A stretch of DNA of 33,110 bases from NCBI GenBank assembly GCA_028823035.1, contig JAPKCI010000050.1, positions 1 to 33,110 on the forward strand, written 5' to 3'. Position numbers and translations under genes: made by a program. Below are positions 9,065-32,039 of the stretch, piece by piece (within the stretch, counting starts at the first letter, position 1; each line of letters opens with the position of its first letter). The DNA is from Rubripirellula sp. GTDB lineage: Bacteria; Planctomycetota; Planctomycetia; Pirellulales; Pirellulaceae. The notes under the pieces were generated by a model. It was given only the letters and a program-made list of their open reading frames with translations, did not search any database and had not been told where the DNA came from.

Positions 9065-9200
9065 CGGCGTAATTGTCCTGACGCGGAGAATTTAGCAAGC
9101 GTGTCGTGTAGAATCATTACGTTTCCTTGATGTATCGACAACCGCGTGCTTTTTCGAACGCAACGTTGAGCGAAAGCCAACCTGAGACCAAATCCAAGTA

Positions 9201-10358
9201 ATGAACATCCCCTTGCGCCCATTTCAAAGCCATTTCTGCCATGTAAAACAGAATCAACTGAGCCTGAACTTGTTCATTGGGTTGGTCCTTGTCTCTGGTC
9301 AGGGTCAGGCTCAAACCCCATCCAACTCCGTTGCAGAAGTACTCAATCGAGCAGTGCAGCAGGGTTCGGTTGTTGGGGCACAAATATTGACAAGTTCAGG
9401 GCTTCAGAAACCGATACGAAGCACGAATTTGGGTTTTTTGGGTCCAGACGATCAGCGTCATGTTACCAGTGAATCCATGTTTTGCATTGCATCCTGCTCA
9501 AAGCCATTAATTTCAGCTGTCATTTTCGCTCTCGTGGACCAACAGAAACTCAACCTTGAGACCCCCGTGGGAAAGTGGATCCCAAACTTTAATCAACCGC
9601 GGCTTACGAATGGGACAGCCACCCGTTCACCGAACCTCAGGGAACTACTTTCGCACCGAGGGGGCATCTATTCACAGAAAGTAAAGCTCAATCAACTTCA
9701 GTTGAGAGCGATTCGGGATTTCCGTCTCACCTTGGAACAATCGGTCGATTTGATTAGCAGTCAGCCACTTATCTCTGCACCGGGGCAAAAGTTCGCCTAT
9801 AGCGGGGCCGGCTATTGCCTGGTGGGCGCCACCGCTGCAAACGCCACGGGAAAACCAATCGACACACTCCTGCAAGAGTACCTTTGCACGCCGGCAAAGA
9901 TGTCATCCACAACTTTCTTTCCCAACCTCAGAGAAGGTGCGTCAATTGCAACAGGTGGCTTTGAACAATCTCCCCCTCCGCACCTTTTAGGGAAAGAAAT
10001 GCGATTGCCACTCGTCGGTGGCAGCATCCACACAACCGCCGAAGATTTACAACGATTCGCCAGAATGATCATTGGCCATGGCGTCGCTGGCGGCCAGCGA
10101 GTTCTTAGCCCGCCTGCGTGGAAACAATACGTATCGCAACCATTCAAAGAACAACCTTACGGCTATGGCTGGACGCGAACGGTCGACAATCAGAAAACCA
10201 CGATTTCCCACAATGGATCGTTGCCGCCGGCGCAAGCGAGCATCCGAATCAACCTGACGACCGGCAATTATCAGATTGTATTATGGACGCTTGCAAACCC
10301 TGGCAACGCAACCCTTAGATCCAGCATCCGGCAACAAGTCAATTCAGCCTTGCGCTGA
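9201..10358 (+). CDS. Secreted serine hydrolase, beta-lactamase class C / PBP4*-like fold
   Basis: This is a 385-residue member of the beta-lactamase-related family (PF00144), which includes D-alanyl-D-alanine peptidases, esterases and class C beta-lactamases. A hydrophobic segment at residues 20-37 after a basic start looks like a signal peptide, so the protein is probably exported. The nucleophile motif SxxK is S98-C-S-K101. The second motif normally reads YxN; here it is Y200-S-G. The third motif is H337-N-G in place of KTG, as is common in esterase-like members. The conserved segment GGSIHTTAEDLQRFARMI is also present. No Shine-Dalgarno site is seen at the ATG. It diverges from uvrA and converges on the DUF1571 gene with only 26 bp between stops. 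The substrate cannot be named. Confidence 0.88.
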   Translation: MNIPLRPFQSHFCHVKQNQLSLNLFIGLVLVSGQGQAQTPSNSVAEVLNRAVQQGSVVGAQILTSSGLQKPIRSTNLGFLGPDDQRHVTSESMFCIASCSKPLISAVIFALVDQQKLNLETPVGKWIPNFNQPRLTNGTATRSPNLRELLSHRGGIYSQKVKLNQLQLRAIRDFRLTLEQSVDLISSQPLISAPGQKFAYSGAGYCLVGATAANATGKPIDTLLQEYLCTPAKMSSTTFFPNLREGASIATGGFEQSPPPHLLGKEMRLPLVGGSIHTTAEDLQRFARMIIGHGVAGGQRVLSPPAWKQYVSQPFKEQPYGYGWTRTVDNQKTTISHNGSLPPAQASIRINLTTGNYQIVLWTLANPGNATLRSSIRQQVNSALR

Positions 10359-10384
10359 AACACAACGGCAATGTGACAACAACA

Positions 10385-11233
10385 TCACTTCTCGTTGAAG
10401 TACTTTGTTTTCTCAAAAACATCATCCGGCAGAGTGACGTTAAGCTGCAGGTTCAGATAGTTGTATTCCTCGATAAGAGTCGGCTCGGAATCCCCGGTTG
10501 CGGGCCAATCGTAGACTACCACCCTGACCGGTACCTTCAATTCGTCATCAACGTAGAGGCTGGCCTTATGAAAGGACAGTGAATCGGATCGCTGCGGATG
10601 CACCACCTGAATATGCGTGCAAGTGCGATCTTTTAACTTTGCGTTGCGAAAATACTTTACGGTCGTGTTTCGCCCCTCCGGGTCCGCACGCAAATCATCA
10701 TTGGCATGATCAATCAGGCGTTGCATGATTTGTTCAAAACCAATCTGCGTGACGGGGTATCGGCTTTCGCGTTTTGCAGCGTCACCATACGGGTCGATTT
10801 GCAATTCGACATTTTTGAACAGACCGATGCCACCCATCCGCACCGAGGCAAGGTCGTCATTCATACCTTCAGTGTAAAGAACGATTCGGCCCTTCATTTT
10901 TGCCGGACCCAAGAACTTCATCAGAACCGACATCGGTTGAACAGATTCACCATCCTGCTGTCGCGAACACTGGACCATCACATCCGCATACTGGTAGGCT
11001 TGCATACGTCCGCCAATACGTTCGCGCTTTACCAACTGGCAACTGTAGCTCCGCACATGTTCGCGGATATAAGATTGACGCGTTTGAGCAAATTGAATGG
11101 TTGAAACAAGTGGATGTAGGGAGCCGCCGTCAGACTGACTTGGCAATCCTTCGCCACGGGCGTTTGTACAAAAACCCATGACCAGAATCACAGCACTGAA
11201 ATTCCAACGGTATGTCTTTGCTGTCTGCCACAT
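10385..11233 (-). CDS. DUF1571 family exported protein
   Basis: The 282-residue protein has an N-terminal hydrophobic stretch (about residues 10-27) typical of a signal peptide, so it is predicted to be exported. The mature part begins a characteristic DUF1571 (PF07608) pattern with VRSYSCQLVKRERIGG near residues 61-76. It continues with a beta-rich domain containing MKFLGPAKMKGRIVLYTEG and a C-terminal PVRVVVYDWP segment. DUF1571 proteins are common in planctomycetes and have no established function; the LolA-like look of the beta sheet suggests binding of a lipid or other hydrophobic ligand, which is inference only. The ATG has a good Shine-Dalgarno site (AGGGA, 8 bases upstream). The gene is monocistronic as far as can be seen. 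Confidence 0.88.
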   Translation of the reverse strand: MWQTAKTYRWNFSAVILVMGFCTNARGEGLPSQSDGGSLHPLVSTIQFAQTRQSYIREHVRSYSCQLVKRERIGGRMQAYQYADVMVQCSRQQDGESVQPMSVLMKFLGPAKMKGRIVLYTEGMNDDLASVRMGGIGLFKNVELQIDPYGDAAKRESRYPVTQIGFEQIMQRLIDHANDDLRADPEGRNTTVKYFRNAKLKDRTCTHIQVVHPQRSDSLSFHKASLYVDDELKVPVRVVVYDWPATGDSEPTLIEEYNYLNLQLNVTLPDDVFEKTKYFNEK

Positions 11234-11444
11234 CGGATATTCCCTGAAAACATTGGTTGTCCGCTCCGAAGCAACCCTGCCGTCTCACGCACTGCCTGTT
11301 GTGCACACAGCGGCCCGTACCCGACCAGCTTAATCCAACTGGACCTTACGAGCCGCCAAACAACAGATTTATGGCTTAGTTTGAGCCTACAGTAACGTCA
11401 CACCCGATCCTTGGTGGCATCGCCAATGATATCGCGTGCCATCA

Positions 11445-12330: not shown

Positions 12331-15300
12331 ATGAACTATCACCTGACGATTTTCCTGATCCTGACCCTTCCGTCACTGACTTACGGACAGGACCTGGACA
12401 CTCCGCACGCAATCAACACACAAGCCCCTGACGAACATCCACCCACGCCACTGGCAGCGGCGTCCAAAATAGCTGTGCCCGACGGATTCACGGTGTCACT
12501 TTTTGCGGGTGACCCCGACGTCCACCAACCGATAGCGTTCGACATTGATGACCGCGGCAGGTTGTGGGTTGTGGAGTGCTATACCTACGAAGGCAACTAT
12601 GATTTGGAGCGTCGGGACCGCATTCTGATTTTGGAAGACAAAGACGGTGACGGCACCTTTGATACACGCAAGGTATTCTGGGATGAGGGTCAGCGTCTGA
12701 CGGGCATCGCCCTCGGTTTCGGAGGTGTCTGGATCACTTCTGCGCCCAATCTATTATTTCTTCCCGATCGCGATCAGAACGACAAGCCCGATTCCGAACC
12801 CAGCATCCTGCTTGATGGATTCAGCACGCGAGCCCGGCATAATATGGTCAACGGTTTGCGGTGGGGTCCAGACGGTTGGCTGTACGGTCGTCACGGGATC
12901 ACTGACACGTCCACGGTCGGAACTCCCGAAACACCAAGCGGCAAGCGGACCCGTTTGAACTGTTCAATTTGGCGATACCACCCGACACGGAAAACGTTTG
13001 AAGTCGTTACCCACGGCACAACCAACCCATGGGGACTGGACTACGATGATTACGGACAATGGTTTTTCACGAACAATGTGATCAACCATCTGTGGCATGT
13101 CGTACCCGGCGCTCACTATGAACGTATGTTTGGTGACGACTTCAACCCGCACCTGTATCAGTTGATCTCACCCACGGCCGATCATTTTCACTGGGACACT
13201 CTTGGCAAGGCTGGCGATACAGGAAATACAAACCGAAAGAAATACGACGGTCGCCACGATGTTCATGGCGGAGGACATTCGCATGCAGGCGGCATGATTT
13301 ACCTGGGCGGAAAATGGCCCGACGAATATCGAAACGCCATGTTCATGTGCAACACACACGGCAGGCGGGTAAACATGGATCATCTCGTCCGCCAGGGAAA
13401 CAGCTATACCGCACAGCATGGCCGCGATTTTCTAATTGCCAACGATCCGTGGTTTCGAGGCGTGGAACTTAAATATGGACCCGATGGCAACGTTTACATC
13501 ACAGACTGGTCTGATCTGGGCGAATGCCACGATCGAGACGGTGTGCACCGCACGAGCGGCCGCATCTACAAAATCAGCTTCGCAGGAAAACCAGAACAAA
13601 AGACCGAAACGGAACTCAACCTCGCAACCACGTCACCCGAGCGTCTCGTGCAGATGCAACTGCATCCCAATGACTGGTTCGTCCGTCACGCACGCCGTAA
13701 ACTTCAAGAACTGGCATTCGCCGGACGAGACCTCACGCCACAGGTACAGAGCCTTCAACAAATATTTTCGACCCACCCGGACATCACAAGAAAGCTGCGT
13801 GCAATGTGGTGCCTGTATTGCGTTAATGCCGCCCCGGAGTCATGGCTTCTGCAACAACTTGAGCATCCGAACGAACACATACGCATTTGGGCGAGTCGAT
13901 TTCTAGTGGACGATGGAACTCCCTCAACTCGCGTGATCGAAGGATTGACACGTTTGGCCCAAAGTGAACAATCTGGCCTGGTCCGATTGTATCTGGCGTC
14001 TGCGATGCAACGACTGCCACCTTCGCAACGCTGGCAAATGGCTCGACCGCTGACCAGATGCGCCGCTGACGTTGGTGATCGCGTCCAGCCACTCATGCTT
14101 TGGTATGGGATTGAACCCGCAGTTGCGATCGATCCTGATAACGCTCTCGCCCTCGCGCAAGACACAGTGTTCCCACTCATCAGAAGGCACATTGCCAGGC
14201 GGCTGACAAGTCAAATTGACGCTAATCCTACCGTTGTCACGCGACTGCTGGCGGTAGCTCAACAGGCGTCCGATGCCCAGGCAACCGACTACCTGCAGGG
14301 GATAGCCGCGGCCCTGCGAGGACGCCGCAAGATAGCCTCGGTGCCCGAGTGGCGGATAGCTGTCCAGCAATTTGTTAAGTCATCAAACAGCCAACTGAAA
14401 ACGCTGGCAGAAGAGATTCTCGTCGTACTTGGAGATGGCCGCACCATCAATTCGCTGCTTAAGATCGCACGAAACAAATCAGCTGATCCAGCGGCAAGGC
14501 AGCAAGCTTTGAAAGTGGTACTGGGTGCCGGCCCCGATGGCCTTCTGTCATCGTTGCTCGCATTGAAATCCGACAAAGTGGTCGGGGCAGCAGCAATCCG
14601 CGGTCTGGCGTTATACGAATCACCAACGGTTCCCAAACAGCTCATGAGCATGTTCGCCAATGCAAAGCATGATCACCGGCCTGCCATCATTGAAACGCTC
14701 GCATCTCGGGCGTCCTACGCCACCATCCTTCTAGAGGCATTGGCAGACGGATCCATTACGGCTGCCGACATCCCGGCGTCCACCGCCAGTCGAATTGCAA
14801 ATCTGGGCGATCCAAAACTCCAGACTTTACTGGAAAACCACTGGGGTACAATCCAGGCATCCACCGCTAGCAAACAGAATGCCATTGCTCAATACCGCAC
14901 GAGTCTCGAGCCAGAATCGTTGTTGGAAGCCAACATGAGCAATGGACGCAAAACGTTTACCAAACTCTGCGGCAACTGTCATATCATGTTTGGCAAAGGT
15001 AGTAAGGTGGGCCCCGACCTAACGGGATCAAACCGGGATAGCGTCGATTACCTGTTGGATAACATCATCGACCCCAGTCGCATTGTCCCTCTGGGCATGA
15101 GGCAATCGCTCTTTCTATTGAACGACGGGCGTGTCATCTCCGGTGTGCCTGTCCGCGAGGACACAAGCACCGTGACCGTGCAAACCGCAACCGACATTGT
15201 CACTCTGGATGTCAGCGAGATCGAAACGAAGAAACAGAAGCAGACGTCGCTGATGCCCGAAGGGCTGCTCAAGGACTTATCCAGCCAGGAAGTCCTCGAA

Positions 15301-15354
15301 TTGTTTGCCTACCTGCAAAGTTCCAGCCAGGTGGTTGAGCAACCGACACCCTAA
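12331..15354 (+). CDS. Secreted PVC-type propeller / HEAT-like / cytochrome c fusion protein
   Basis: This 1007-residue protein has a short signal peptide (about 1-20, cut near TYGQ). Residues 45-425 form a beta-propeller of the 'putative membrane-bound dehydrogenase' type seen in planctomycetes and verrucomicrobia (TIGR02604). It includes KDGDGTFD at 104-111 and NGLRWGPDGWLYGRHG. Residues 440-850 are mostly helical and repetitive, consistent with HEAT-like repeats. The C-terminus is a cytochrome c domain (TIGR02603 type) with heme attachment site C880-G-N-C883-H884, a KVGPDLTG segment and Met975 as the likely axial ligand. I infer an exported redox enzyme of carbohydrate or alcohol oxidation in which the heme domain takes electrons; the substrate is unknown. 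It starts at ATG without a clear ribosome site and converges on the HEAT-repeat gene. Confidence 0.9.
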   Translation: MNYHLTIFLILTLPSLTYGQDLDTPHAINTQAPDEHPPTPLAAASKIAVPDGFTVSLFAGDPDVHQPIAFDIDDRGRLWVVECYTYEGNYDLERRDRILILEDKDGDGTFDTRKVFWDEGQRLTGIALGFGGVWITSAPNLLFLPDRDQNDKPDSEPSILLDGFSTRARHNMVNGLRWGPDGWLYGRHGITDTSTVGTPETPSGKRTRLNCSIWRYHPTRKTFEVVTHGTTNPWGLDYDDYGQWFFTNNVINHLWHVVPGAHYERMFGDDFNPHLYQLISPTADHFHWDTLGKAGDTGNTNRKKYDGRHDVHGGGHSHAGGMIYLGGKWPDEYRNAMFMCNTHGRRVNMDHLVRQGNSYTAQHGRDFLIANDPWFRGVELKYGPDGNVYITDWSDLGECHDRDGVHRTSGRIYKISFAGKPEQKTETELNLATTSPERLVQMQLHPNDWFVRHARRKLQELAFAGRDLTPQVQSLQQIFSTHPDITRKLRAMWCLYCVNAAPESWLLQQLEHPNEHIRIWASRFLVDDGTPSTRVIEGLTRLAQSEQSGLVRLYLASAMQRLPPSQRWQMARPLTRCAADVGDRVQPLMLWYGIEPAVAIDPDNALALAQDTVFPLIRRHIARRLTSQIDANPTVVTRLLAVAQQASDAQATDYLQGIAAALRGRRKIASVPEWRIAVQQFVKSSNSQLKTLAEEILVVLGDGRTINSLLKIARNKSADPAARQQALKVVLGAGPDGLLSSLLALKSDKVVGAAAIRGLALYESPTVPKQLMSMFANAKHDHRPAIIETLASRASYATILLEALADGSITAADIPASTASRIANLGDPKLQTLLENHWGTIQASTASKQNAIAQYRTSLEPESLLEANMSNGRKTFTKLCGNCHIMFGKGSKVGPDLTGSNRDSVDYLLDNIIDPSRIVPLGMRQSLFLLNDGRVISGVPVREDTSTVTVQTATDIVTLDVSEIETKKQKQTSLMPEGLLKDLSSQEVLELFAYLQSSSQVVEQPTP

Positions 15355-15463: not shown

Positions 15464-17263
15464 CTACCTCGGATCGGCTGGCAAGGGTGTCAAAAACCAA
15501 TGGTCCTTCGTGTTTGTCGTTCGCCTCATACTTGGAACGGGGACGGGCGTGCCCGTGATCTGCTCTACAGACCAACGTGCAGCACTACCCACCAAATCCC
15601 CAAGTTCAACGTAGCCTTGAATTTCGTCGACAACGGTAGTCGCCTTCATGCGACCCAATGACACCGCTGACATCACCCGCACAAAAATCATCTCTGGAAA
15701 TTCTACCTCTTCATCGAGCAGACGCTCAGTCAGAAGCGGTACCAAATCAGAATCGGCATCTCCTTCGTGAAACATCCCGAGAGCCCAGATCGCAGCGGGG
15801 CGTGCAAACTCACCATACTCGTAGCTCTTCTCAATCATCTTACGTAATAGCGGTTCAGAGGGTGTGTACGCCTGGTCGCCAAAGGCAAGGTAAAGGTGGG
15901 CAAGATGCAAGGTGACACCCGGCATTCTGGCATTCAATTGATTTGAAGAAAGTCCCTGGTAAATGCTTTCCGCATGATCCAACATATCTGGCAAAACCTC
16001 AGCCACCCGCAATTGGGTTAAACCCCACGCAGCGGCAACTTGGACATCGCCCCGCGGATGCCCCAACAACTCAACCATACGTTGAGCGCTTGGGTCGTGA
16101 TCCAGTTTCGCCAACACAACACAGGCTTGCTCGCAACCGCGCCAACCATTTTTGGCAAGAACGTTCTGAACTTCCTTAATGACAATGGGTTTGAGATCCG
16201 CCGAGTCGCCGAACTGAACCAGCGAACTGCCAGCGAAACGCCTCAAGGTAGGATTCAGATCGTCCAGCAAACTGGCAAGCATGGCGACCCGTTTGCTATC
16301 CAGCCCATCCACCATAGTTTTCACGCACCACCAGCGTACGTTAACATCACGACTGCCGATCAACTGATCTACGAATGGTTCAACCAATTGGTAGTCAATC
16401 CGGTACAAATGCCGCAACGCTTCCGATTGCACGGCACTGTTCTCGTTGTTGACCAAACCGTTCAATACAGCGATTGAATTCTCCGAATCATCTGATTCGA
16501 TCGCTGCCAGCGCCAGCAGGGCGTTAAGAGCCTGCGGCCGTGATTTTTCAGCCAGAATATCTGTCGCGAGTTGAACCTGCCCGCTGGGATCAACTTTCCC
16601 CAAGGTTCGTGCCGCGGTGATGCGCAATTGCCTCAATGCACTGGCATTGCGTGCCAACCTTTGGAGAGCATTTTTCGGCTTCGTTGCTTTGATCGCGGCA
16701 ATCCCTTTCATGGCTAGAATCATCTGGCTGGCACTGGCTGACTGTTCCTCAACCCTTTCCACCCAATCTTGCTGCATGACAGTGGATCCCCATGCCGTCA
16801 AAGCGGGTTCAACGATTTCAGAAATCGCACGCCCCTTGACGACCGCCAACTTGGCGAACAATTCCTCGTGCTCACGTGGGTCAAGCAAAATCAGTGTTTG
16901 GACGGTTGCACGCAGCACATCCAAATCCTGATCGTCAGCCGAAGCCAGTTTCGCAAGCTCACCGACCGCAATTTCAAGGCCCTGCAAGTTCTCTTCGTAA
17001 GCCATTGCCATCGTATCTATGACGAGTCGTTGCAGTTCCGGATCGGGACGTTTCAACGCTCTCAACCAAAGCACCTTCAAACCGACAGGGAACTTTTCTT
17101 CGTCGCCGGGGATTAAGGCCAAATCTGGACGCACTTTCATCAGCAGGTCGTATTCCTGAAACCTTCCCGGCACTTCATCCCCGGGGTCGCCCTCCGCAGC
17201 GACAGCAACATGAAGCGTCCCCGCAGCCAGCAACATCAGTCCAGCAACCATCAGTCGTAACAT
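15464..17263 (-). CDS. Exported HEAT-repeat protein, last gene of the ABC cluster
   Basis: I take the ATG at 17261-17263 as the start. It begins a classic signal peptide (MLRLMVAGLMLLAAGTLHVA) and lies 2 bp after the stop of the upstream permease (TGAAAATG). The longer frame would add 27 residues inside the permease gene. The mature protein of about 575 residues is almost entirely helical, with repeated pairs of about 30-40 residues (for example EALRHLYRIDYQLVEPFVDQ and NPTLRRFAGSSLVQFGD). This is the HEAT/PBS-lyase repeat pattern and suggests a protein-binding scaffold outside the cytoplasmic membrane. No catalytic motif is seen. The tight spacing means it is translated with the ABC exporter. 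Either it works with that exporter or it only shares the transcript; the first is inference. Confidence 0.82.
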   Translation of the reverse strand: MLRLMVAGLMLLAAGTLHVAVAAEGDPGDEVPGRFQEYDLLMKVRPDLALIPGDEEKFPVGLKVLWLRALKRPDPELQRLVIDTMAMAYEENLQGLEIAVGELAKLASADDQDLDVLRATVQTLILLDPREHEELFAKLAVVKGRAISEIVEPALTAWGSTVMQQDWVERVEEQSASASQMILAMKGIAAIKATKPKNALQRLARNASALRQLRITAARTLGKVDPSGQVQLATDILAEKSRPQALNALLALAAIESDDSENSIAVLNGLVNNENSAVQSEALRHLYRIDYQLVEPFVDQLIGSRDVNVRWWCVKTMVDGLDSKRVAMLASLLDDLNPTLRRFAGSSLVQFGDSADLKPIVIKEVQNVLAKNGWRGCEQACVVLAKLDHDPSAQRMVELLGHPRGDVQVAAAWGLTQLRVAEVLPDMLDHAESIYQGLSSNQLNARMPGVTLHLAHLYLAFGDQAYTPSEPLLRKMIEKSYEYGEFARPAAIWALGMFHEGDADSDLVPLLTERLLDEEVEFPEMIFVRVMSAVSLGRMKATTVVDEIQGYVELGDLVGSAARWSVEQITGTPVPVPSMRRTTNTKDHWFLTPLPADPR

Positions 17264-17265
17264 TT

Positions 17266-18924
17266 TCAAACCGCGCGAGAGAGTCGCCACACTTGCACCC
17301 CTAGAACGAGAAACATGATGAACGAGAGAGCACCAGCGATCCACCAGGATAGAGGCAGCAGCTCGTACGATTCAAAACCAGGTGCCTGAATCACGCTCAA
17401 GGCGGCACCAACGGGAGTTGTCAATAACGCGGTCTCAACGGTCGAAAATCCGAATGGCGCATCCCGCCCGAGCCAAACCAAAACCGGAAACAGAAAGATC
17501 CCAATCACAACGACGTAAGTGACCGACGTCGAAACAGCCGTCGACTTGAATAAACTACCGACGGCAGAACTGATAGCCAAAGCATAAATGGAAATCCACA
17601 GTAGACAGACCAAAACCTGCTGCACTTGGTGGGTCATTTCAGGGGCAATCAGCACCATCATTACATAACCGGGCAAGGTCGCCATCAGCACCAATACGAG
17701 TGTCCAAACGACACTCATCAACTTGCCGAAAATCAACCGAAAGGATGAAATCGGCGTCATCCGAAGCAGTTCCCACCCACCGCTGTCACGTTCTCCGCTG
17801 ACCAGGCCAGATCCCAAACTCGGTGCCAGCACAACCACTAGCAATACCTGCAGCAGCACCAACAAAGCACCAATTGTTTCCACACCCCAAGACGTAATAC
17901 TGGCTGCTGCCATGTATGTCAGGACCATCGAAACAACAGCACAAACTGACACCAACCTCAGCAACCATTGTGATCGACCGAACCGCCGACAACGGAATTC
18001 CTTCACCATCACCGGATTCAGATACCAGGGAATCCCACGCTTGCGACGCTGGGGATCAACCACGTACATCAAACGCCGAAACAGTCTCGACATCCGATTC
18101 ATGTCGTTCGTGATCACGCCCTTGGACCGCGACTGGTCAAAAATGCGATGATTGAGCCGCAAAACACACCAGATTGCAAAACCAAACGCACTCGCCACAG
18201 CCAGCACAATGAAGCCACCCACACTGGGCAAGGACTTCAATCCGTAGGAAGCGACATCTGCTTGGCCAAGAATTTCCATGACAGCAGGTAATGGCGAAAC
18301 ATTCCTCAACCATGTCCCGACCATCACCGCGAAATCCCCCCCGACTCCGGTACCCCGAAAGAAGGCATGGGGCAACAGCGTCAGAAACAAAAGCCCGAGC
18401 ACGGTCGTGTACGTGATTCGTACCGCAGCATCACTTGACTGAACATAACTGCTAATCAGCATCCCCAGCGTCGCGTACTGCAGCGCCAACAAACTGAGCA
18501 CTAAGTACAACATCAGGAATTGGACACCATCGATTCCTCCCATCGCATAGCAGGCCGCGGACGCCGGTAAACTGCAGGTGAGAACCAATAGGCTGAACAA
18601 CAGAACGCCAGAAATTTTCCCGATATAGATCGACAAACCACTGAGGGGTGAATTCAGTAACAGAGCCAAGGTGCCACTCGTCTTTTCGTTGACCAGCGAG
18701 GTCGCTGGGAACGCAGGCACAAGAAAAATCACGCCCGCCATCAAACCGTAGGCAAAAATCCGAAAGACCTGTAACGATTGCACTCCTGACAGATCTACCG
18801 ATGCATCCGCCGGCCACCTCATCAACACGGCCAGCGAGAATACAACGGTCAGGCAGACGAGCATCCCAAACGCTTTGGGCGATCGAAGAATCCCGACAAA
18901 TTCACGACGAATCACTGGGTTCAT
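17266..18924 (-). CDS. ABC-2 type permease, two fused transmembrane halves
   Basis: The 552-residue integral membrane protein has two similar halves, each with about six hydrophobic segments. The first half (1-265) begins MNPVIRREFVGILRSPKAF and contains FPATSLVNEKTSGTLALLL. The second (about 300-552) begins NPVMVKEFRCRRFGRSQWLL and contains SLGSGLVSGERDSGGWELLR. Both have the 'E+..GT/GW+LL' motif of ABC-2 permeases, which couple to the ATPase. A single chain therefore supplies both membrane domains of a transporter, as in other duplicated ABC-2 permeases. The start codon overlaps the stop of the ATPase gene by 4 bp (18921-18924), and the HEAT-repeat gene follows after 2 bp. The transported substrate is not evident. 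Confidence 0.9.
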   Translation of the reverse strand: MNPVIRREFVGILRSPKAFGMLVCLTVVFSLAVLMRWPADASVDLSGVQSLQVFRIFAYGLMAGVIFLVPAFPATSLVNEKTSGTLALLLNSPLSGLSIYIGKISGVLLFSLLVLTCSLPASAACYAMGGIDGVQFLMLYLVLSLLALQYATLGMLISSYVQSSDAAVRITYTTVLGLLFLTLLPHAFFRGTGVGGDFAVMVGTWLRNVSPLPAVMEILGQADVASYGLKSLPSVGGFIVLAVASAFGFAIWCVLRLNHRIFDQSRSKGVITNDMNRMSRLFRRLMYVVDPQRRKRGIPWYLNPVMVKEFRCRRFGRSQWLLRLVSVCAVVSMVLTYMAAASITSWGVETIGALLVLLQVLLVVVLAPSLGSGLVSGERDSGGWELLRMTPISSFRLIFGKLMSVVWTLVLVLMATLPGYVMMVLIAPEMTHQVQQVLVCLLWISIYALAISSAVGSLFKSTAVSTSVTYVVVIGIFLFPVLVWLGRDAPFGFSTVETALLTTPVGAALSVIQAPGFESYELLPLSWWIAGALSFIMFLVLGVQVWRLSRAV

Positions 18925-19943
18925 GATGCGGTAACCTCCGCAGACTCAACACTGGGCCTCGCTGCCGACTCTTCATTCGCAACGTGCAAAAACGCGTCTT
19001 CAAGGTCTGTCGCTACTTCCCGAAACTGCGACACCGGTTCGCCTTGCTGCACCAACTGCGCCAACAAAGGAGCGACATCATCATCAGCCAGACTGGTGGA
19101 AAACCGCACCATCTGCTCGGCCTCTGCGTTGGTCGCCTGTCCAGTGCCTCCCTTCTCGCGTTCAGCCTGTCCATCAAGCCAGCCTTGCACGGTTGCTGTG
19201 ACGGATTTCACCCGATCACGATTTAGCAGTTGAATCTCAAATGTTCGACGCTGCTGAATGTCCTGCATGATACTGTCGACGGTCCCAAACGCTCTGAGTT
19301 TTCCTTTGGTGATCATAGCGACAACATCACACACGCGAGCCAACTCGGGAAGGATGTGACTGGTAACAATCAGTGTCTTGCCCATCTCACTAAGTTGCAG
19401 CAACAGCGTTCGCATGTCGATTCGCGCCTGTGGATCCAAACCGTTCGCGGGTTCATCAAGAACCAGAACCTCAGGGTCGTGCATCAGAGTCCTTGCCAAT
19501 CCAACACGCTGCTGCATGCCGCGACTCAAGGCATCCACGAAGAGATCCTTCATGTAGGTGGCGCCCGTGACTTCAAGTACTTCATCAATCCGTTTCATTC
19601 GTGGCTTACGCGAGATTCCGTACACCGCACCAAAGAAGTCCAGGTACTCGTTAACTCGCATGTTGTTGTACTTGCCAAACTCATCGGGCATGTAACCGAC
19701 CAACCGTTTGATCTTGCGGGATTCCGTCAGGCAGTTGGCACCAGCGATGCTGGCCGTTCCGCTGCTTGGCTTCAGCAGTCCAACAAGGATGCGAATGGTG
19801 GTCGTTTTCCCTGCACCATTGGGTCCAATGAAGCCCAGAATCTGGCCTTTCTCGACTTGCATGGACAGTGAATCCAATGCGGTGAATTCACCGTATTGTT
19901 TCGATAATTGATCAATTTGAATGACCGCGTTGCTAACACCCAC
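18921..19943 (-). CDS. ABC transporter ATP-binding protein (NatA/GldA-like)
   Basis: This 340-residue ATPase drives the ABC-2 permease encoded next to it. Walker A is GPNGAGKTT (40-48), the signature is LSRGMQQR (139-146), Walker B is VLVLDEP (159-165) and the switch His is H196. The Q-loop position reads GYMPDEFG. The 'LSRGMQQR' signature and the order ATPase-permease place it with drug/Na+ export and gliding-type (GldA) ABC-2 systems. A C-terminal extension after about residue 220 is typical of this group. The start is GTG, with GGAG about 7 bases upstream, which supports it. The upstream neighbour ends 40 bp away and the downstream permease overlaps by 4 bp, so the genes very likely share one transcript. 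Confidence 0.93.
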   Translation of the reverse strand: MGVSNAVIQIDQLSKQYGEFTALDSLSMQVEKGQILGFIGPNGAGKTTTIRILVGLLKPSSGTASIAGANCLTESRKIKRLVGYMPDEFGKYNNMRVNEYLDFFGAVYGISRKPRMKRIDEVLEVTGATYMKDLFVDALSRGMQQRVGLARTLMHDPEVLVLDEPANGLDPQARIDMRTLLLQLSEMGKTLIVTSHILPELARVCDVVAMITKGKLRAFGTVDSIMQDIQQRRTFEIQLLNRDRVKSVTATVQGWLDGQAEREKGGTGQATNAEAEQMVRFSTSLADDDVAPLLAQLVQQGEPVSQFREVATDLEDAFLHVANEESAARPSVESAEVTAS

Positions 19944-19983
19944 TTACTTCTCCGTTACCGTTTGCCGGTCGTATGTATGTCGT

Positions 19984-22587
19984 TCACTTCGCGGTGCCTT
20001 CCAGCCCGACCCGCAGATAATCAATTCCCCACGTTTTTCGGATTGGGGCCGTATCAGTAACCCTTGTGTCGTCCTTGGCATCCTTGTCGTCCTTGGCATC
20101 CCTGGCCATCGCGATTTGCTCATCGGATTCTGAAACCTCAATAGCGATTCGCAAGCCACCTTCCGCATCCAACTGGAGCGCCTCGATATCTTCAATCGAA
20201 AACTGAATCCTCTCAATGGGGCTGACCAGTTCTCGCAATGTCTTGAATTTTCCATTCACAAAACCCTTGATGAAGACGGTCCTGCCCGGTGCGTTCATTT
20301 TAAGATCGACGTTTACCCTTTTCAAATCGCATGGCATGACTGACTGCGGAACAGAGCAGCGAACTTCGGCCTGCCCTGGTTTCAAAAGACCATCAAGCCA
20401 TTTTCCTGTAGCGGCATTGAAAAACATCGAACCGACTTGTCCGAGCAATGGACCTTGACGAACAAAGGTGGCCGGAACCTTGAAATTCGTCGCTGACGGT
20501 GTCCGCTCGTATCGAACTGGCATGGACACAAGTGCCCAGCCAACATGCTCGTACCCATCCCCAAACTGAACCCCTGCATCAACCGGTTTGGTCCAGGTCA
20601 TCAAGACAGGTTCAGGAGTCAGAAAATTGCTTAGCGGGCGTGTAAGTTCGCGGAGCAATTCTTGCCGCATTTGCTTGACCTCGGACAAAAGGCTGTCGTC
20701 CATGAATCGATCGGGCGGCAACAACTCCTTGCCGCGATAGGTTGCTGAGGCTAAATCTACCTGTCCCAGAGACAAACTGGGTGCCGCCGCAGCGCACACC
20801 ACCAAATCTTCACAGGCCGCAGCATCAATCCCCTCGGTTCGCACCTCAAATCCTTCGGGTGTGAATGTCCCAATAGCGTTCCACGGAACTGGAAGTGGAA
20901 CCACTGCTTCGGTCTCGACATGCCGAACCACCCCCGGGGGTTGGTTGACAAAGTACCAACGTGAACCGCCAGTGTCGTCCCAGACAATGCGGGTCGCCGC
21001 TCCACCAACACTCTCGGACACCAAATGTGTGGTGCTGTTACCAGAGGAAACGATCGCCAATTCTCGCTGCTCCTGGCTGTAAACGGCGGAAACGGAATTG
21101 ACCCCAGCATTTGCGCTGTCAGGCGTGGTTCGCACGATTTGGCCAGTGGCAATGGTCGATGGGACTTGCGAGGTATTCAATTTCCCCATCGATATCAAGG
21201 TGACCGTTGCCAACAGTGCTGAGATGGGAACCAGCACAGCCAGATGCTGTAGTTTCTTGATCCGAGCCAACCACAGTCCCCCCAGTAAAACCGCCAACAT
21301 TTGCACGGTCAGTACCCAAGCAACGGAACTTCGACTGGGGATCGTGTATCCAATTTCGCTATTCAGTACTTGAGAGATCTCGGCGACATGCCGCGGTTCG
21401 TCCAGTTTGGTCACAAAGAAACGATTCGCAACTGTCTGTAGGGCTGGCGACATTTCGCCATTGGTCAGCCAACCGCGCGCACCCAGCGTAGTGAACAGCA
21501 CCTCACCCTTCCCAACCTGCTTCCAGAACGCGACGGGCCATCCATCGATATCGCAGACCACATCATTGGTATCAACTACCACCCGGGCAAAGGGAATCGG
21601 ATTCTCGAAACTCATGTCGGTAAAACTATCCTTACCCGACGAATGGAGAGCGAGAACACGAATCTGATATTCATTCAACTCAACTTTGTCAATGATGCTG
21701 TAGCAGGCCGCAGCTCCGATCAGCTTCTGAACCGATTCCGGTGTCATCTGATCTACCATCACCCAGAGCCGCCCACCTGAGTGCAGCCATGTACGAATCC
21801 GCTGCACGCCCACGGTGTCAGCAAGAACACCATCGTTGGCAACCACGATCTGATCGAGTGCATCCAGCGGCTTGGAGGTTGGAGGAATAAACCCGCCAGT
21901 CAGATCGATCATGCCAAGATCTTGTCCCCCAGACATTAGCGTGTCAGATGCAGCGTAAAGCATATTTCGAATCACGTCCGCCTTATAGTTACTCTCAAAT
22001 GACTGAACACGGGGTGACAGCAAGATCCCGGTACGAAACGAGTCCTGCGACATCAGCAGGGAACGCTTGCCCTTGGGCATTCCGACTTCATTCGCTTTGA
22101 ACTCTTCTCCATTCGCTGTTTCCGTCAACTGCATCATGGTCATCTCGACCTGAAGCTTATCGGGCAAGATGTCAGATGAAATCTGCAGCGGCAACCATGA
22201 CTGACGGCGGGACATCGCGGGAACCCAAAGCCGTCTCGCATATTGCAAGTCAGTGTCATCACCCACCGTAACAATGCTGATTTCCTCAGCGTCTTGAGCA
22301 GTCTTATTCAACCCATTGACGCCCACCGTTGACCATCGGCCAGCAACATTTCGCGACACGCCTGAGGGTGTCACGGTCAGCGTTGGTTCTGGCCGAGATG
22401 CCTTGACGCCAGAGGTCGAGTCGGCCTCTTGTGAGTTAGCAGCCCTCGGCCCCCACCCATGCGTCCAAGTCAACGCCACCGTCAACGCCAAGAGCATGAA
22501 CGCTGGCGAAAAGGATCTGATTGCAGCTATCAAAGTGAAGTCTGTGGGTTGGCTGGAAATGAGGTTGTGCCGCGGCGGAAAAAACAC
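19984..22587 (-). CDS. Large membrane-anchored protein of unknown function, GldG-like layout
   Basis: I do not recognise a named family with confidence. The chain begins with a hydrophobic signal or anchor near residues 25-45 (MLLALTVALTW). Residues about 90-410 form an alpha/beta domain whose segment LDALDQIVVANDGVLADTVG and following WLHSGGRLWVMVDQ resemble the class I glutamine-amidotransferase-like fold of DUF4350 and GldG-type proteins. Two hydrophobic segments lie at about 415-470, followed by a long extracytoplasmic beta-rich region. The tail is highly charged and carries an 18-bp tandem repeat (AKDDKDAKDDT). The start is a GTG; TTG at 22533 or ATG at codon 31 would also give a signal peptide. 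Its position immediately before the ABC ATPase suggests it is an accessory protein of that transporter. Confidence 0.75.
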   Translation of the reverse strand: MFFPPRHNLISSQPTDFTLIAAIRSFSPAFMLLALTVALTWTHGWGPRAANSQEADSTSGVKASRPEPTLTVTPSGVSRNVAGRWSTVGVNGLNKTAQDAEEISIVTVGDDTDLQYARRLWVPAMSRRQSWLPLQISSDILPDKLQVEMTMMQLTETANGEEFKANEVGMPKGKRSLLMSQDSFRTGILLSPRVQSFESNYKADVIRNMLYAASDTLMSGGQDLGMIDLTGGFIPPTSKPLDALDQIVVANDGVLADTVGVQRIRTWLHSGGRLWVMVDQMTPESVQKLIGAAACYSIIDKVELNEYQIRVLALHSSGKDSFTDMSFENPIPFARVVVDTNDVVCDIDGWPVAFWKQVGKGEVLFTTLGARGWLTNGEMSPALQTVANRFFVTKLDEPRHVAEISQVLNSEIGYTIPSRSSVAWVLTVQMLAVLLGGLWLARIKKLQHLAVLVPISALLATVTLISMGKLNTSQVPSTIATGQIVRTTPDSANAGVNSVSAVYSQEQRELAIVSSGNSTTHLVSESVGGAATRIVWDDTGGSRWYFVNQPPGVVRHVETEAVVPLPVPWNAIGTFTPEGFEVRTEGIDAAACEDLVVCAAAAPSLSLGQVDLASATYRGKELLPPDRFMDDSLLSEVKQMRQELLRELTRPLSNFLTPEPVLMTWTKPVDAGVQFGDGYEHVGWALVSMPVRYERTPSATNFKVPATFVRQGPLLGQVGSMFFNAATGKWLDGLLKPGQAEVRCSVPQSVMPCDLKRVNVDLKMNAPGRTVFIKGFVNGKFKTLRELVSPIERIQFSIEDIEALQLDAEGGLRIAIEVSESDEQIAMARDAKDDKDAKDDTRVTDTAPIRKTWGIDYLRVGLEGTAK
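20068..20103. repeat. 18-bp tandem repeat in coding DNA
   Basis: Two adjacent 18-base copies beginning gtcgtccttggcatcc, at 20068 and 20086, differ at the last base or so. They encode DAKDDK and DAKDDT in the charged tail of the large membrane-anchored protein on the minus strand. The length keeps the reading frame. Confidence 0.9.
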
Positions 22588-22923: not shown

Positions 22924-24060
22924 CTAACTATCCGTCATGGACTCTTGAATCCCAAATTTAAGCCAGAGAGTTGAACTTAACGCCACGCAGCCCTCGACTA
23001 CAACAAACAGGATTCTGGCAGCGATTGCTGCAAGAATCGCATGCGTCGCCCCTAAAGCAACTGCCAAAACGGTGGTGACCACCAATTCACGGATGCCTGC
23101 TCCACCAGGCAACAGCGAAGCAAAGCCGATCACCACGGCCAAGCTGATCGCTGCAGTGCAGACGAGATACAGTTCCATCATCTCGGGCAGCGGCTGAACA
23201 CTGGGAATGGCAGTCACCAGTAGCGTGAAGGATGCACCGATCAATAGCCATGACAGTGTTGACCACGCCCACCCCGACGCGAACAACCCCCAGCCAATGT
23301 CGGCATCACTTGCCTCGGTGTCAGTCTTCATGAGCCGAGCCGCAACAATTTTCAACATCGGCGGAAAGGTTGGCACACTGGCTAAGACTGAAATACCGAC
23401 GGCCATCATCGCAATCCATCGAGGTACTGGGAGCCAAAGCACGACGATCCCGGCTACCGTTCCACCCACGGCCATCATCAGGAATGTTTCCAGAAAAACA
23501 CTCATAGTCGCCTGCACGGGTTTCACCCCATCCCGGGCCAACACACCCGCGCGGATCACGATCACCATCGCCTTGCCAGGAACGTATTTACCGATATGCC
23601 CTAGTAACTGCGCTGCGATCACCGTCATCAACCTCGGACGCTGACCAAGCGAAACCAATGCACGGCGCAGCAGGAACCCGGAGGGAATTAGTCCCAACGC
23701 ATAGAGTACCCCCGCCCCAACACAGCGTCCCCACCGAATGGTACGCCAACTGGGCAATGATGCCGCCATTGCATCGCGTTGTTCCAGCAGTTCGATTCGG
23801 TCACTGTTGTTGAGCCGGCTCAACTGCGCATCGATTTCGTCGATTTCAGACTGGACCTTCTGTTGTTCTTGTCGCCACTGCGTTAGAGCAGAACGCCCGG
23901 CGTACCCCAAGCCAACCACGACGATCACTGCGATCATCCATTTGGCGATGCGAATAAAATGGAGCCTCCACCCCACACCGGGTGTCGGCGTCTTTGATCC
24001 ATCTTCTTTCTGACTCAACCCGCTATCCTCAGTTGCGCAGGTGGTTGAATTGAGCAACAA
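22924..24060 (-). CDS. Lysylphosphatidylglycerol-synthase-like transmembrane protein
   Basis: The 378-residue protein belongs to the LPG synthase transmembrane / flippase-like group (PF03706, UPF0104). The signature segments are LLGHIGKYVPGKAMVIVIRAG (about 152-172) and SLLPGGAGIRELV near the C-terminus, with about eight membrane segments. The cytoplasmic aminoacyl-transferase domain of MprF is absent, so a role in flipping or transporting a lipid-linked molecule is more likely than lipid modification. It is unusual in having a soluble N-terminus of about 35 residues and a coiled-coil insert (residues 62-100, rich in Glu/Gln) between the first and second membrane helices. The start is TTG and is uncertain. 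It diverges from the AI-2E-type permease across about 130 bp. Confidence 0.82.
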   Translation of the reverse strand: MLLNSTTCATEDSGLSQKEDGSKTPTPGVGWRLHFIRIAKWMIAVIVVVGLGYAGRSALTQWRQEQQKVQSEIDEIDAQLSRLNNSDRIELLEQRDAMAASLPSWRTIRWGRCVGAGVLYALGLIPSGFLLRRALVSLGQRPRLMTVIAAQLLGHIGKYVPGKAMVIVIRAGVLARDGVKPVQATMSVFLETFLMMAVGGTVAGIVVLWLPVPRWIAMMAVGISVLASVPTFPPMLKIVAARLMKTDTEASDADIGWGLFASGWAWSTLSWLLIGASFTLLVTAIPSVQPLPEMMELYLVCTAAISLAVVIGFASLLPGGAGIRELVVTTVLAVALGATHAILAAIAARILFVVVEGCVALSSTLWLKFGIQESMTDS

Positions 24061-24189
24061 GCCCGGTTTTCAACGCCAGATCATCCAGAATTCGCCTGCG
24101 GCACTCTGGCACTAGCTTCGGGTTGTGCGACACTATAAACCTGATCATCACGTTCATCATCTTGATCTTTTTTTCCGAGTCCCACCCAG

Positions 24190-25923
24190 ATGTCGAAACG
24201 CAAAAACCAGAAGAAAACGCAACCCTCTGGAAACAGCCCCGCAAAACCAAAATCATCAGCCGCAAAAAGTGGCGGAGACACAACAATCGGCGGCACCGGT
24301 ACGGATCAGGCAAAGTTGGTCAGCAGCACCGACACAACGCAGCCAGCCGCCGGGCCTGTGCTACCGCCCCTGCCATCCCTGTCGCGGATCCTTTCCGTTG
24401 CCATGCTGATACTCGGGATCATAGCGGTCGGTGCTCTCTTTTACAAAGTCATGGCAAGTTTCTTTGTGCCGCTCTTTTTGGCAGCTCTGCTGGTGGTGAT
24501 CTTTCGCCCGGTCCATTTAAAACTTTTGACTCGGCTAGGGAATCGTCGACAAATCGCGTCCATGACAACCACCTTGTTGATCATGGGTATCGTATTGTTG
24601 CCGGTGTTTCTGCTGCTTTCCATTGCAGCTAGTCAATTCACCGCGATGGTGAGTCACGTCAACTTCAAGGACCTGTCATCCGCTTTGGACCGTGGTCGAG
24701 AACAACTGGGGATTTCTCTCCCCTATCCCGAACAGTTCCGCCGACTGGATGTTCTCTCTGACAACTTGGATGAACCCGAACGGCCTAGCGTCGAAGGTAC
24801 TCCCCTGCTTGGAACCGATTCCAAGATCGTAAAGGAACTGGTCGTAGCAAATATCACGGAGGCTCTGACGCTGGTTCGTTACTTGCAAACCAAAGTACCT
24901 GGGCCAGCAACTGCTGACGAAGCCGCCAGAATAGCCGAGCAAAGGCTGCTTGAATTTCGCGAATCCGTCAATCAGCATCGCGATAGCAGTCCCGATCCAA
25001 AATCCGATGAACTGATCGGAAATCTGAGTGACGAAGAACAATTCCACCGACAGAGCGTGATCGCATCAGCCGCCATTCGATCCTGGATGCGAATCCTGCT
25101 GGGAGGAACGTTTCGCAGCCAAGTCCGCTTATTGGCCAACCCAAGCACGGAGTCCTTCAAGGATCTTCTGAACCGTAGCCGCGAAGTACTACAACCCAGA
25201 TTCGTATCGGTGACCAGCGCGACGGGTGGCTTCTTGCTGCAATCCCTGATTGGCTCGTTGGTCCTTGTCATCGCAATCTATTTTTTCCTTCTCGACGGCG
25301 CAACAATGATCCGCACTCTGATGCGATTGAGCCCTCTGGATGACAATTACGAAGCCCGTTTGCTGCTGGAATTTGACAGAACCAGCCGAGCGGTCGTGTT
25401 GGCAAGTGTTTCCAGTGCACTTGCCCAGGGGATACTGGCCGCCATCGCGTTCTGGATACTCGGATTCAACTCGATCATCTTTCTGTTTCTGATCACCAGT
25501 CTGATGGCGCTGGTTCCCTTCCTAGGTGCAGCCTCTGTCTGGATCCCCTGCTTGATTTATCTGGGGGCTGTTGAACAACGATGGTACGCCGCGGTGTTCC
25601 TGCTGATCTACGGGGCCGGCGTCGTATCATCCATTGATAACGTAATCAAGATGTACGTCTTGCATGGGCGTTCAACGATGCATCCATTGTTCGCGTTACT
25701 GAGCGTTCTTGGCGGCGTCAAAGTGTTTGGTCCCATCGGAATTCTGATTGGCCCGATGGTGGTGGTATTCATGCAAACACTGTTGGAAATTCTGAATCAC
25801 GAACTGGCGGAACGCGATGCAAGTATGATCAATCCGCTGCTGAACGAACGGGAATCCGAAGCCCCCGACCAAGACGGGCCATCATCGCACACGAATGATA
25901 ACGATACGGTTCCAGCCATCTAA
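24190..25923 (+). CDS. AI-2E family transporter (PF01594)
   Basis: A 577-residue integral membrane protein of the TqsA/PerM group; despite the family name, many members are exporters or cation/proton antiporters with unknown substrates. Membrane segments start at about residue 66 (ILSVAMLILGIIAVGALFY). The C-terminal half carries the conserved pore region LMALVPFLGAASVWIPCLIY and the segment GGVKVFGPIGILIGPMVVV. Two features make it longer than the usual 350 residues. One is a 60-residue N-terminal Lys/Ser/Thr-rich cytoplasmic tail. The other is an expanded soluble loop (about residues 155-320) rich in charged residues between the second and third membrane groups. The last codons and the stop lie inside a 19-bp tandem repeat. 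The start ATG has no clear ribosome site. Confidence 0.88.
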   Translation: MSKRKNQKKTQPSGNSPAKPKSSAAKSGGDTTIGGTGTDQAKLVSSTDTTQPAAGPVLPPLPSLSRILSVAMLILGIIAVGALFYKVMASFFVPLFLAALLVVIFRPVHLKLLTRLGNRRQIASMTTTLLIMGIVLLPVFLLLSIAASQFTAMVSHVNFKDLSSALDRGREQLGISLPYPEQFRRLDVLSDNLDEPERPSVEGTPLLGTDSKIVKELVVANITEALTLVRYLQTKVPGPATADEAARIAEQRLLEFRESVNQHRDSSPDPKSDELIGNLSDEEQFHRQSVIASAAIRSWMRILLGGTFRSQVRLLANPSTESFKDLLNRSREVLQPRFVSVTSATGGFLLQSLIGSLVLVIAIYFFLLDGATMIRTLMRLSPLDDNYEARLLLEFDRTSRAVVLASVSSALAQGILAAIAFWILGFNSIIFLFLITSLMALVPFLGAASVWIPCLIYLGAVEQRWYAAVFLLIYGAGVVSSIDNVIKMYVLHGRSTMHPLFALLSVLGGVKVFGPIGILIGPMVVVFMQTLLEILNHELAERDASMINPLLNERESEAPDQDGPSSHTNDNDTVPAI

Positions 25924-31043: not shown

Positions 31044-32039
31044 ATGTTCCGACATGCCGCAATTCAAGGGATCTTTTTCGCTCTTGTGCTTGGACCGGTG
31101 CACGCCGCTCCACCCGCTTCCAAACCCGCGAAAATTGAGTTCCAGTTCGCTGATGTGGAGACATCGCGAGCGTTACTGGCAACGGAAGATATCTACACGA
31201 ACGCCATGAGCCCGTTCGATCGTAAAGTGCGGATGAGTGTGCAACAGGACCCCGGAACCAAGAACTACATGAAATTTGTCGCCAACCAGGCGCAAACATG
31301 GTCTCCCGAAGCCATCGAGGCTGTCAACCAAGCCATCGACGCCCTGAAGGAACCACTGGCATCACTCGGCATCAAATTGAACGCACCCGTCAGTCTGATC
31401 CATACGACCGGCCGGGAAGAAGCTGGAGCAGCCTACACACGAGGAAACGAAATCATACTGCCTCCGCAAGAAACAGGCACCAAGAGCAATCCGCCAACAC
31501 GATTACTCGCCCATGAACTCTTTCATGTCATCTCCAGACAACATCCTGAATTGCGAGATCAACTCTATGAGATGATCGGATTCAAAAAAACGAATCCAAT
31601 CCAGTTGCCCGCTAACATCACTCACCTTCGCATCACCAATCCCGATGCGCCCATCATCGAACACGTCATGCGACTGAAGCTGTCACCAGAAACAAGCGTA
31701 ACCGTAGCACCGATACTGATCGCAAAGACCGACTATCAAGCTGACCGAAAACAAGGACTGTTTGGTTACCTTTCCTTTAAATTGATGCAGGTAAAAGAAA
31801 CACCCGACGGCTGGATTGCTGAGTTTTCAGACCAAAGCCCCATCTACCACTCACCTCAAACACCAGATTTCAAACGTCAAATCGGCAGAAACACAGGTTA
31901 CATCATTCACCCGGAAGAGATTCTGGCGGACAATTTCACACTGCTTGTCACGAATGGCAAGATCACCGATCAATGGGTAACCGATCAAATGCGTGCCGAG
32001 ATAAAAACCTATTTTGACGACAGTACCAAGTCAAACTGA
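31044..32039 (+). CDS. Secreted HExxH zinc metallopeptidase of unknown specificity
   Basis: A 331-residue exported protein: the first 22 residues (MFRHAAIQGIFFALVLGPVHA) are a signal peptide, cut near Ala-Ala. The catalytic zinc motif is H157-E158-L-F-H161, in the segment LLAHELFHVISRQHPEL. A conserved-looking HPEEILADNF (289-298) lies near the C-terminus; Glu291 or Glu292 is the likely third zinc ligand, as in gluzincins. The segment NPDAPIIEH lies between them. I cannot assign a numbered peptidase family. The ATG has a good ribosome site (GAGG 8 bases upstream). The membrane-protein gene follows on the same strand after about 80 bp, so the pair may be an operon. Confidence 0.8.
   Translation: MFRHAAIQGIFFALVLGPVHAAPPASKPAKIEFQFADVETSRALLATEDIYTNAMSPFDRKVRMSVQQDPGTKNYMKFVANQAQTWSPEAIEAVNQAIDALKEPLASLGIKLNAPVSLIHTTGREEAGAAYTRGNEIILPPQETGTKSNPPTRLLAHELFHVISRQHPELRDQLYEMIGFKKTNPIQLPANITHLRITNPDAPIIEHVMRLKLSPETSVTVAPILIAKTDYQADRKQGLFGYLSFKLMQVKETPDGWIAEFSDQSPIYHSPQTPDFKRQIGRNTGYIIHPEEILADNFTLLVTNGKITDQWVTDQMRAEIKTYFDDSTKSN

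Follow-up and report, generated by a model that had tools for sequence, protein, structure and literature searches.

Four adjacent genes on the minus strand of the window, as the whole 33,110-nt stretch of planctomycete DNA analysed here is called, constitute on the evidence of their sequences a real, conserved unit and probably build one envelope machine. Named A, B, C and D in the order of transcription, they encode a large exported protein anchored in the membrane, an ABC ATPase, a double ABC-2 permease and an exported HEAT-repeat protein (Table 1). The preliminary description had proposed a conserved envelope unit of four genes with an exported HEAT subunit, and this was upheld by the gene order and by the co-occurrence of A and D across the phylum. 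The four genes recurred in this order in relatives whose A and D are as little as 20-25% identical, and the cluster is therefore more than a chance arrangement. Planctomycetes have an unusual cell envelope.

Table 1. Position of the four genes and of their main features in the window, followed by two A-D pairs from other loci (coordinates of those loci).
Feature	Coordinates	Strand	Evidence
Gene A, large exported membrane-anchored protein, 867 aa	19984..22587	-	Open frame, GTG start
Gene B, ABC ATPase, 340 aa	18921..19943	-	PF00005 (ABC_tran) 101.3 bits (cut-off 25)
Gene C, double ABC-2 permease, 552 aa	17266..18924	-	PF12679 (ABC2_membrane_2) 59 bits (cut-off 27.2); PF12730 (ABC2_membrane_4) 38.4 bits, second half; hydropathy
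Gene D, exported HEAT-repeat protein, 599 aa	15464..17263	-	PF13646 (HEAT_2) 81 bits (cut-off 27.7); ATG at 17263
A, N-terminal hydrophobic segment (signal peptide or anchor), residues 17-39	22471..22539	-	Hydropathy
A, GATase-like/GIFT-fold domain, residues ~179-395	21403..22053	-	AlphaFold model, VIA-align, column conservation
A, transmembrane hairpin, residues ~420-470	21178..21330	-	Hydropathy and two long model helices
A, C-terminal beta domain, BcsB-like (weak), residues ~698-867	19987..20496	-	VIA-align
D, signal-peptide-like segment, residues 1-24	17192..17263	-	Sole hydrophobic segment of D (hydropathy)
Adjacent A-D pair, locus L147	4592-8869		No ABC genes between or beside in the stretch read
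Adjacent A-D pair, locus L148	5146-9680		No ABC genes between or beside in the stretch read

All four frames were open over the coordinates given, which together span 15464-22587. The exact start of A, placed at the GTG at 22587, is uncertain, and D was counted as 599 aa because its 626-aa open reading frame begins upstream of the likely ATG. The close packing that had been pointed out earlier, a 4-bp overlap of B and C and a 2-bp gap between C and D, was exact, and 40 bp separate A from B. No RNA element was matched in the window at the gathering threshold, and scans of the window for promoters and terminators gave nothing above chance.

Several other genes of the window were noted. A PVC-type haem-binding CxxCH protein with HEAT repeats of its own (12331-15354, plus strand) is convergent with D, and a 64-66% identical copy of it lies just 3' of D in four near relatives (G005, G006, G009 and G018). 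The remaining observations were a DUF1571 protein (10385-11233, minus strand) whose match to LolA is weak (23.8 bits, cut-off 30), a protein matching the eCIS core domain (31044-32039, plus strand; 32 bits, cut-off 22) and a class I tRNA synthetase with a DUF5915 C-terminus followed, with a 4-bp overlap, by a formyltransferase-like frame (1387-5399, plus strand).

The assignment of B and C as an ABC ATPase and a double ABC-2 permease was confirmed by Pfam matches well over cut-off. The complete set of ABC ATPase motifs was found in B: among the 69 copies scoring above 450 bits, the Walker A pattern and the LSxGM signature were present in all 69, the switch His pattern in 68 and the Walker B pattern in 62. 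The best NCBIfam match of B was DrrA (229.9 bits, under the cut-off of 312.45) and the second-best GldA (TIGR03522, 226.4 bits, under 402.6). In C, the ABC-2 membrane domains PF12679, PF12730 and PF12698 all exceeded their cut-offs, about 12 hydrophobic segments were counted by hydropathy, and the identity to 19 relatives was 40-82%; its best NCBIfam match was GldF (TIGR03518, 58.2 bits, under 288.5). Permeases of the ABC-2 kind are typically exporters.

The reading of D as an exported HEAT protein was likewise sustained by the signal-like N-terminal segment, seen by hydropathy, and by HEAT_2, which was matched in five stretches of the protein and in 19/19 family members. The model of D (578 residues, pLDDT 94) is an alpha-solenoid, and its structure matches in the PDB were general HEAT/ARM solenoids such as importin and PP2A scaffolds, which are silent on function. 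Planctomycetes have been described as unusually rich in alpha-solenoid proteins, many of them uncharacterised (PMC3837014), and the cluster gives one such family a defined set of partners.

Protein A was less accessible to sequence searches. The window protein had no Pfam match and matched 0 NCBIfam families at E 0.1, the Pfam scan of 18 family members gave single, weak matches only, and the three matches of an 18-member profile in a PDB sequence search were all at chance level. Hydropathy placed a hydrophobic segment at the N-terminus and a pair of segments at residues 420-443 and 446-470; the frames of relatives of A and D also start with hydrophobic N-termini, as judged by eye. An AlphaFold model of residues 52-867, built with 59 sequences (pLDDT 87.4, pTM 0.83), showed, from the N-terminus on, a beta domain, the GATase-like domain, two long helices, a further beta region and, at the C-terminus, another beta domain. 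The long helices (368-391 and 395-423 in the numbering of the model) correspond to the hydrophobic pair. In this way A, a family with no Pfam or NCBIfam match, gains a predicted fold and a genomic context.

The GATase-like domain of the model was aligned by VIA-align with a GH42 enzyme domain (Z 15.4, 186 aligned residues, 3.0 A), with ThuA-like proteins (Z 14.3), with the N-terminal domain of IFT52 (Z 12.3, 179 aligned, 3.2 A) and with chain G of yeast oligosaccharyltransferase (Z 11.7). The N-terminal domain of IFT52 is a GIFT domain (PMC10191852), and so is a domain carried by Wbp1, one of the subunits of the yeast oligosaccharyltransferase; this domain type is named after GldG, and sugar binding has been proposed for it (PMC7226087). 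No GldG structure was among the structure matches listed for A. A Foldseek search with whole A returned long alignments across mixed domains, with a query TM of at most 0.18 among the matches listed. The C-terminal beta domain matched BcsB (9fmt_B and 9b8i; Z 9.2, 122-123 residues, 3.0 A), a weak match of model domains that serves as a lead only.

Active glutaminases rely on a Cys-His pair, and no conserved Cys or His column was found in the GATase-like domain over the 59 sequences, where the best Cys column reached at most 20% and the best His column at most 29%. Over the whole of A the best columns were 31% for Cys and 46% for His in the same 59 sequences. The model thus supports a non-catalytic domain of GIFT or class-I GATase-like fold, and the lack of a conserved Cys or His suggests that its role would be binding and not enzymatic. 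Of the amidotransferase-like domain originally seen in A, the predicted fold was retained and a sequence match was not obtained; the same division holds for the name "GldG-like", which fits A at the level of the GIFT/class-I-glutaminase-like fold and has no GldG sequence match behind it.

The gene order was analysed in relatives. Of 20 fetched loci, 18 had the order A-B-C-D found in the window, and the remaining two were the A-B-C and D pieces of a single genome's cluster at contig ends; in L046 and L056 the contig ended within A, and about 1.5 kb of extra sequence lay between A and B in L049. Among 240 relatives that a profile of C picked up in the genome collection, 80 loci were examined, all labelled as planctomycetes except two labelled merely bacterium. 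All four genes were present in 58/80 of these loci, always in the order A-B-C-D (58/58), when fragments at contig ends were scored as present; 10/80 were cut by contig ends and 12/80 lacked a member despite room. With stricter scores, 54 A-B-C-D loci were counted, plus one in which D was broken into frames. The conserved order expected from the preliminary description was therefore recovered in both sets.

The incomplete loci were of several kinds. D was missing, with room available, from L094, L099, L103, L114 and L144; A-C-D with no B in between was seen in L121, L128, L129 and L136, and in L128 and L129 B was found elsewhere on the opposite strand; C-D without A and B was seen in L100 and L104, and C alone in L091. 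The transcription order was C, A, B, D in L150 and L151. Taking the first ATG in reach as the start, C overlapped B by 4-8 bp in 41/66 loci and D started at the stop of C or within 31 bp of it in 47/67, while the spacing of A and B was looser, with the first ATG within 31 bp of the stop of A in merely 23/60.

Permeases related to C were used as controls. Neither A nor D was found (profile E 0.01) beside any of 22 paralogous C loci from cluster-bearing genomes, two of them (L165 and L166) from the window's own genome, a set in which G015 has A but no D match and several stretches are cut by contig ends. D was also beside 0/20 paralogous C loci in genomes without the cluster, a weak control, as these genomes lack A and D altogether. 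A fifth member gene was considered and rejected: the commonest flanking family, in single-linkage clusters, occurred in 13/59 loci of at least 12 kb, and the recurrent flanking families, by eye DUF1501-like, DUF1559-like and sulfatase-like among others, resemble paralogues that abound in planctomycetes.

In a set of 60 genomes, counting the window's own, A was found in 25, D in 25 and both in 23. The two genomes with A only (G004 and G015) and the two with D only (G010 and G014) have partial matches or matches near contig ends, judging by the listed coordinates. Every match of A or D in this set fell within the window's own family (37 genomes), and neither was found in the 23 genomes of other families of the same order. 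Both were also missing from five members of the genus (G001, G003, G012, G019 and G021), each at least 99% complete, and the four-gene unit thus has a patchy distribution within the genus. Stretches of about 20 kb from the first four of these genomes gave no match to A, C or D, and in them the upstream neighbours of the cluster (window 22924-25923) remain side by side; one of the four stretches holds an ATPase 34% like B, and the downstream neighbour (12331-15354) had no close match in any.

The wider search covered 393 genomes of this phylum, the window's own included, and speaks for this phylum only. The profile of A matched 42/393 genomes at E 0.001, 37 of them strongly (E 1e-80 or better), and the same 37 genomes carry D at E 1e-30. 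A and D lay within 8 kb on one strand in 32/37; they were on different contigs in G018, G381 and G422 and apart in G392 and G342. The HEAT protein and the large protein do not, then, occur mostly without the ABC genes, the A-D pairs being adjacent in these 32/37 genomes and the loci complete in 58/80. Copy numbers of A and D are lower bounds, the top two candidates for A and the top three for D having been scored per genome. Of the five genomes with weak A matches, two hold divergent full clusters (L170 and L171, with D at 38 and 62 bits), L168 and L169 have an A-like gene and an ATPase, and L167 has A-like genes alone; a frame of 1023 aa, lying about 1 kb beyond the A-like gene of L168, scored 28 bits with the D profile.

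Eleven of 46 D copies had no listed A match within 8 kb. Among these, L160 does have an A copy, which the 393-genome profile search missed, L154 sits with B and C, five (L153 and L156-L159) stand alone beside unrelated genes, and those of G018, G381, G422 and G400:C200 are on contigs other than that of A. Directly 5' of the lone D of L159 is a frame of 782 aa (8934-11282) that contains a flagellin hook IN motif. Adjacent A-D pairs without B and C were found in G437 and G417 (L147 and L148, with gaps of 58 and 207 bp); in each of these genomes a second A and D lie elsewhere, spaced as in a full cluster, and in G417 such a full cluster is L160. A full cluster was detected on a contig labelled Phycisphaera sp. 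(L107, 6173-13509), with a C 53% identical to that of the window; this closeness exceeds what would be expected for another class and makes the locus a candidate for transfer or for a binning error. Since the cluster is small and self-contained and is carried by named strains with chromosome records, K23_9 (L080), SV_7m_r (L085) and TBK1r (L087), it is amenable to direct testing.

The covariation of A, C and D was quantified in 52 of the 80 loci, those with all three proteins over the score thresholds. Pairwise distances correlated at 0.943 for A-D, 0.919 for A-C and 0.884 for C-D, and the A-D correlation was still 0.711 after regressing out C, against a maximum of 0.179 in 2000 label permutations. 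In FastTree trees, 25-28 of the 29-33 splits with support of at least 0.9 were shared, and 1-3 pairs were in conflict. Both A and D are exported and fast-evolving, and part of their correlation may come from shared shifts in rate.

The linkage and co-occurrence of the genes and the ATPase motifs can be read from the sequence, as can, through hydropathy and prediction, the signal-like and membrane segments and the folds; we infer from them that A, B, C and D would act as one physical complex. The reading ranked first, which we hold tentatively as possible, is an envelope machine of the ABC-2 kind whose periplasmic arm is formed by A and D as a pair and which exports or hands over an envelope component. 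Two copies of B would power the 12-helix ABC-2 core of C, giving motor and channel (B2-C). A would be clamped beside C in the inner membrane by its hairpin, placing its beta domains and its non-catalytic, GIFT-like binding domain in the periplasm, and the solenoid of D, also periplasmic, would dock on A as a flexible scaffold. Cycles of ATP hydrolysis in B-C would push the envelope component outwards to the A-D arm, which would hand it on. The cargo might be a glycan-bearing or lipid-linked molecule; the glycan, the softest step of the scheme, is a guess from the predicted GIFT fold of A and the weak match to BcsB. Several observations weigh against the scheme: no polysaccharide gene travelling with the cluster was seen by eye in its flanks, D is not strictly bound to A, as the D copies with no A nearby show, and 12/80 loci lack a member although they have room for it.

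Ranked second, and rather unlikely in our judgement, is mechanotransmission or maturation with no transport, in which A and D, moved by B-C, would assemble, strip or switch a partner in the periplasm. NosDFY is a system of this type. A mechanotransmission-type mechanism has been described for MacB and LolCDE, so that it exists in other ABC systems (PMC10094684), and the large periplasmic subunits, the GIFT domain of A with no conserved catalytic Cys or His and the A-D pairs that occur without B-C would all agree with it. However, C belongs to the ABC-2 permeases, which are typically exporters, and the large domains of MacB and LolC sit in the permease itself, whereas here they are separate proteins. 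It is unlikely that a single B-C motor is shared by a set of interchangeable heads in the periplasm, with a GIFT-fold protein matched to a HEAT solenoid in each, an arrangement suggested by the A-D pairs without motor genes in L147 and L148 and by the A-D covariation beyond that with C. If true, this pairing of a GIFT domain with an alpha-solenoid would be a bacterial parallel to IFT52, a GIFT-domain protein around whose central region the solenoids IFT88 and IFT70 are wrapped (PMC10191852).

An ordinary ABC-2 exporter of drugs or metabolites, with A and D as incidental neighbours, would accord with DrrA being the best NCBIfam match of B, also under its cut-off. This reading is improbable, as even deeply diverged genomes keep A and D together and next to each other and neither lies beside any of the 22 control permease loci of cluster-bearing genomes.

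The preliminary description had likened the gene order to GldA/F/G gliding modules. That the cluster is a planctomycete module of this kind, for gliding or protein secretion, is very improbable, although the GIFT-type fold of A is shared with GldG and although GldF is the best match of C and GldA the second-best of B. The scores missed the GldF and GldA cut-offs, the GldG equivalog (TIGR03521) had no match in A, and SprA (TIGR04189; gliding/T9SS), the one such component searched, had no match at E 1 in the window's own genome. GldG-like matches were found in that genome on other contigs, C391 (45.5 bits) and C337 (11.9 bits), also under the cut-off of 389.85; on the former (L206, 1-2052), an ABC ATPase precedes a permease-like frame that has a GldG-like part, is cut by the contig end and, by eye, opens as an ABC permease. 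Such matches, none over cut-off and mostly in frames of 700-1000 aa, occurred in 20/21 genomes searched, including the cluster-free G001, G003 and G012 and seven genomes of other families. Order and architecture differ as well. Compared with the topology of GldG, A has a central transmembrane hairpin and extra beta domains, and C is a double permease; we know of no HEAT partner for Gld. The gene gldG lies downstream of gldF (PMC5682007), whereas A stands first in the cluster. What the two share is an ABC ATPase, an ABC-2 permease and an anchored GIFT-type protein (PMC10191852, PMC7226087), and the proposed gliding link was not sustained.

A part in an anti-phage or stress defence island is scarcely credible. 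In its favour is the patchy presence of the cluster in the genus, with G001, G003, G012, G019 and G021 lacking it. Against it, PADLOC matched B alone, as generic ATPase parts, and gave no match for A, C or D. Most of the flanking genes scanned have housekeeping roles, no mobile-element family was among the Pfam matches of 18 window proteins, and near relatives (L070 and L083) have syntenic flanks.

Among other known families, proteins of DUF4350/arCOG01314 and DUF7408 resemble A in being exported and in having a GATase/GIFT-like domain. Neither family matched A of the window or was listed at E 1 for 18 A proteins; remote relatives of A approached DUF4350 (E 6.5e-4 in L169 and 0.04 in L168) and DUF7408 (E 0.027 in L171), all below cut-off. 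DUF7408, which distantly recalls A, was seen in 18/59 genomes of the phylum, mostly in frames of about 750-1200 aa, and in the window's own genome at G000:C297:8444-8644. DUF4350 proteins have been likened to GldG by HHpred, and in most of the operons described for them the companions are a vWA protein and an AAA ATPase instead of ABC genes and a HEAT protein (PMC5898192).

Another resemblance was found among the 20 paralogous C loci of genomes without the cluster. Sets named A'-B'-C' were detected in other planctomycetes in L192 (2411-7506) and L193 (2562-7891) and, by layout, in L191 (5224-10511). They share with the cluster a large protein (frame lengths of 826-878 aa), an ABC ATPase and a double ABC-2 permease in the order A-B-C. 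They differ in the low score of A' with the A profile, only about 20 bits in L192 and L193 and no match in L191, and in that the D profile has no match. A' is weakly DUF4350-like in L192 and L193, and in L191 an unclassified 861-aa open reading frame precedes B and C. The D-bearing unit looks like a variant of this wider class, from which it possibly arose.

NosDFY is an ABC-2 system that unites an ATPase, a permease and an exported partner, and the cluster is similar in bringing such components together. NosD is a beta-helix, whereas the model of A is mixed beta/alpha and multi-domain and that of D nearly all alpha, with no beta-helix in either. No published description of this cluster was found in the openly accessible literature, and it is apparently an undescribed variant of the ABC-2 systems with GIFT-type partners.
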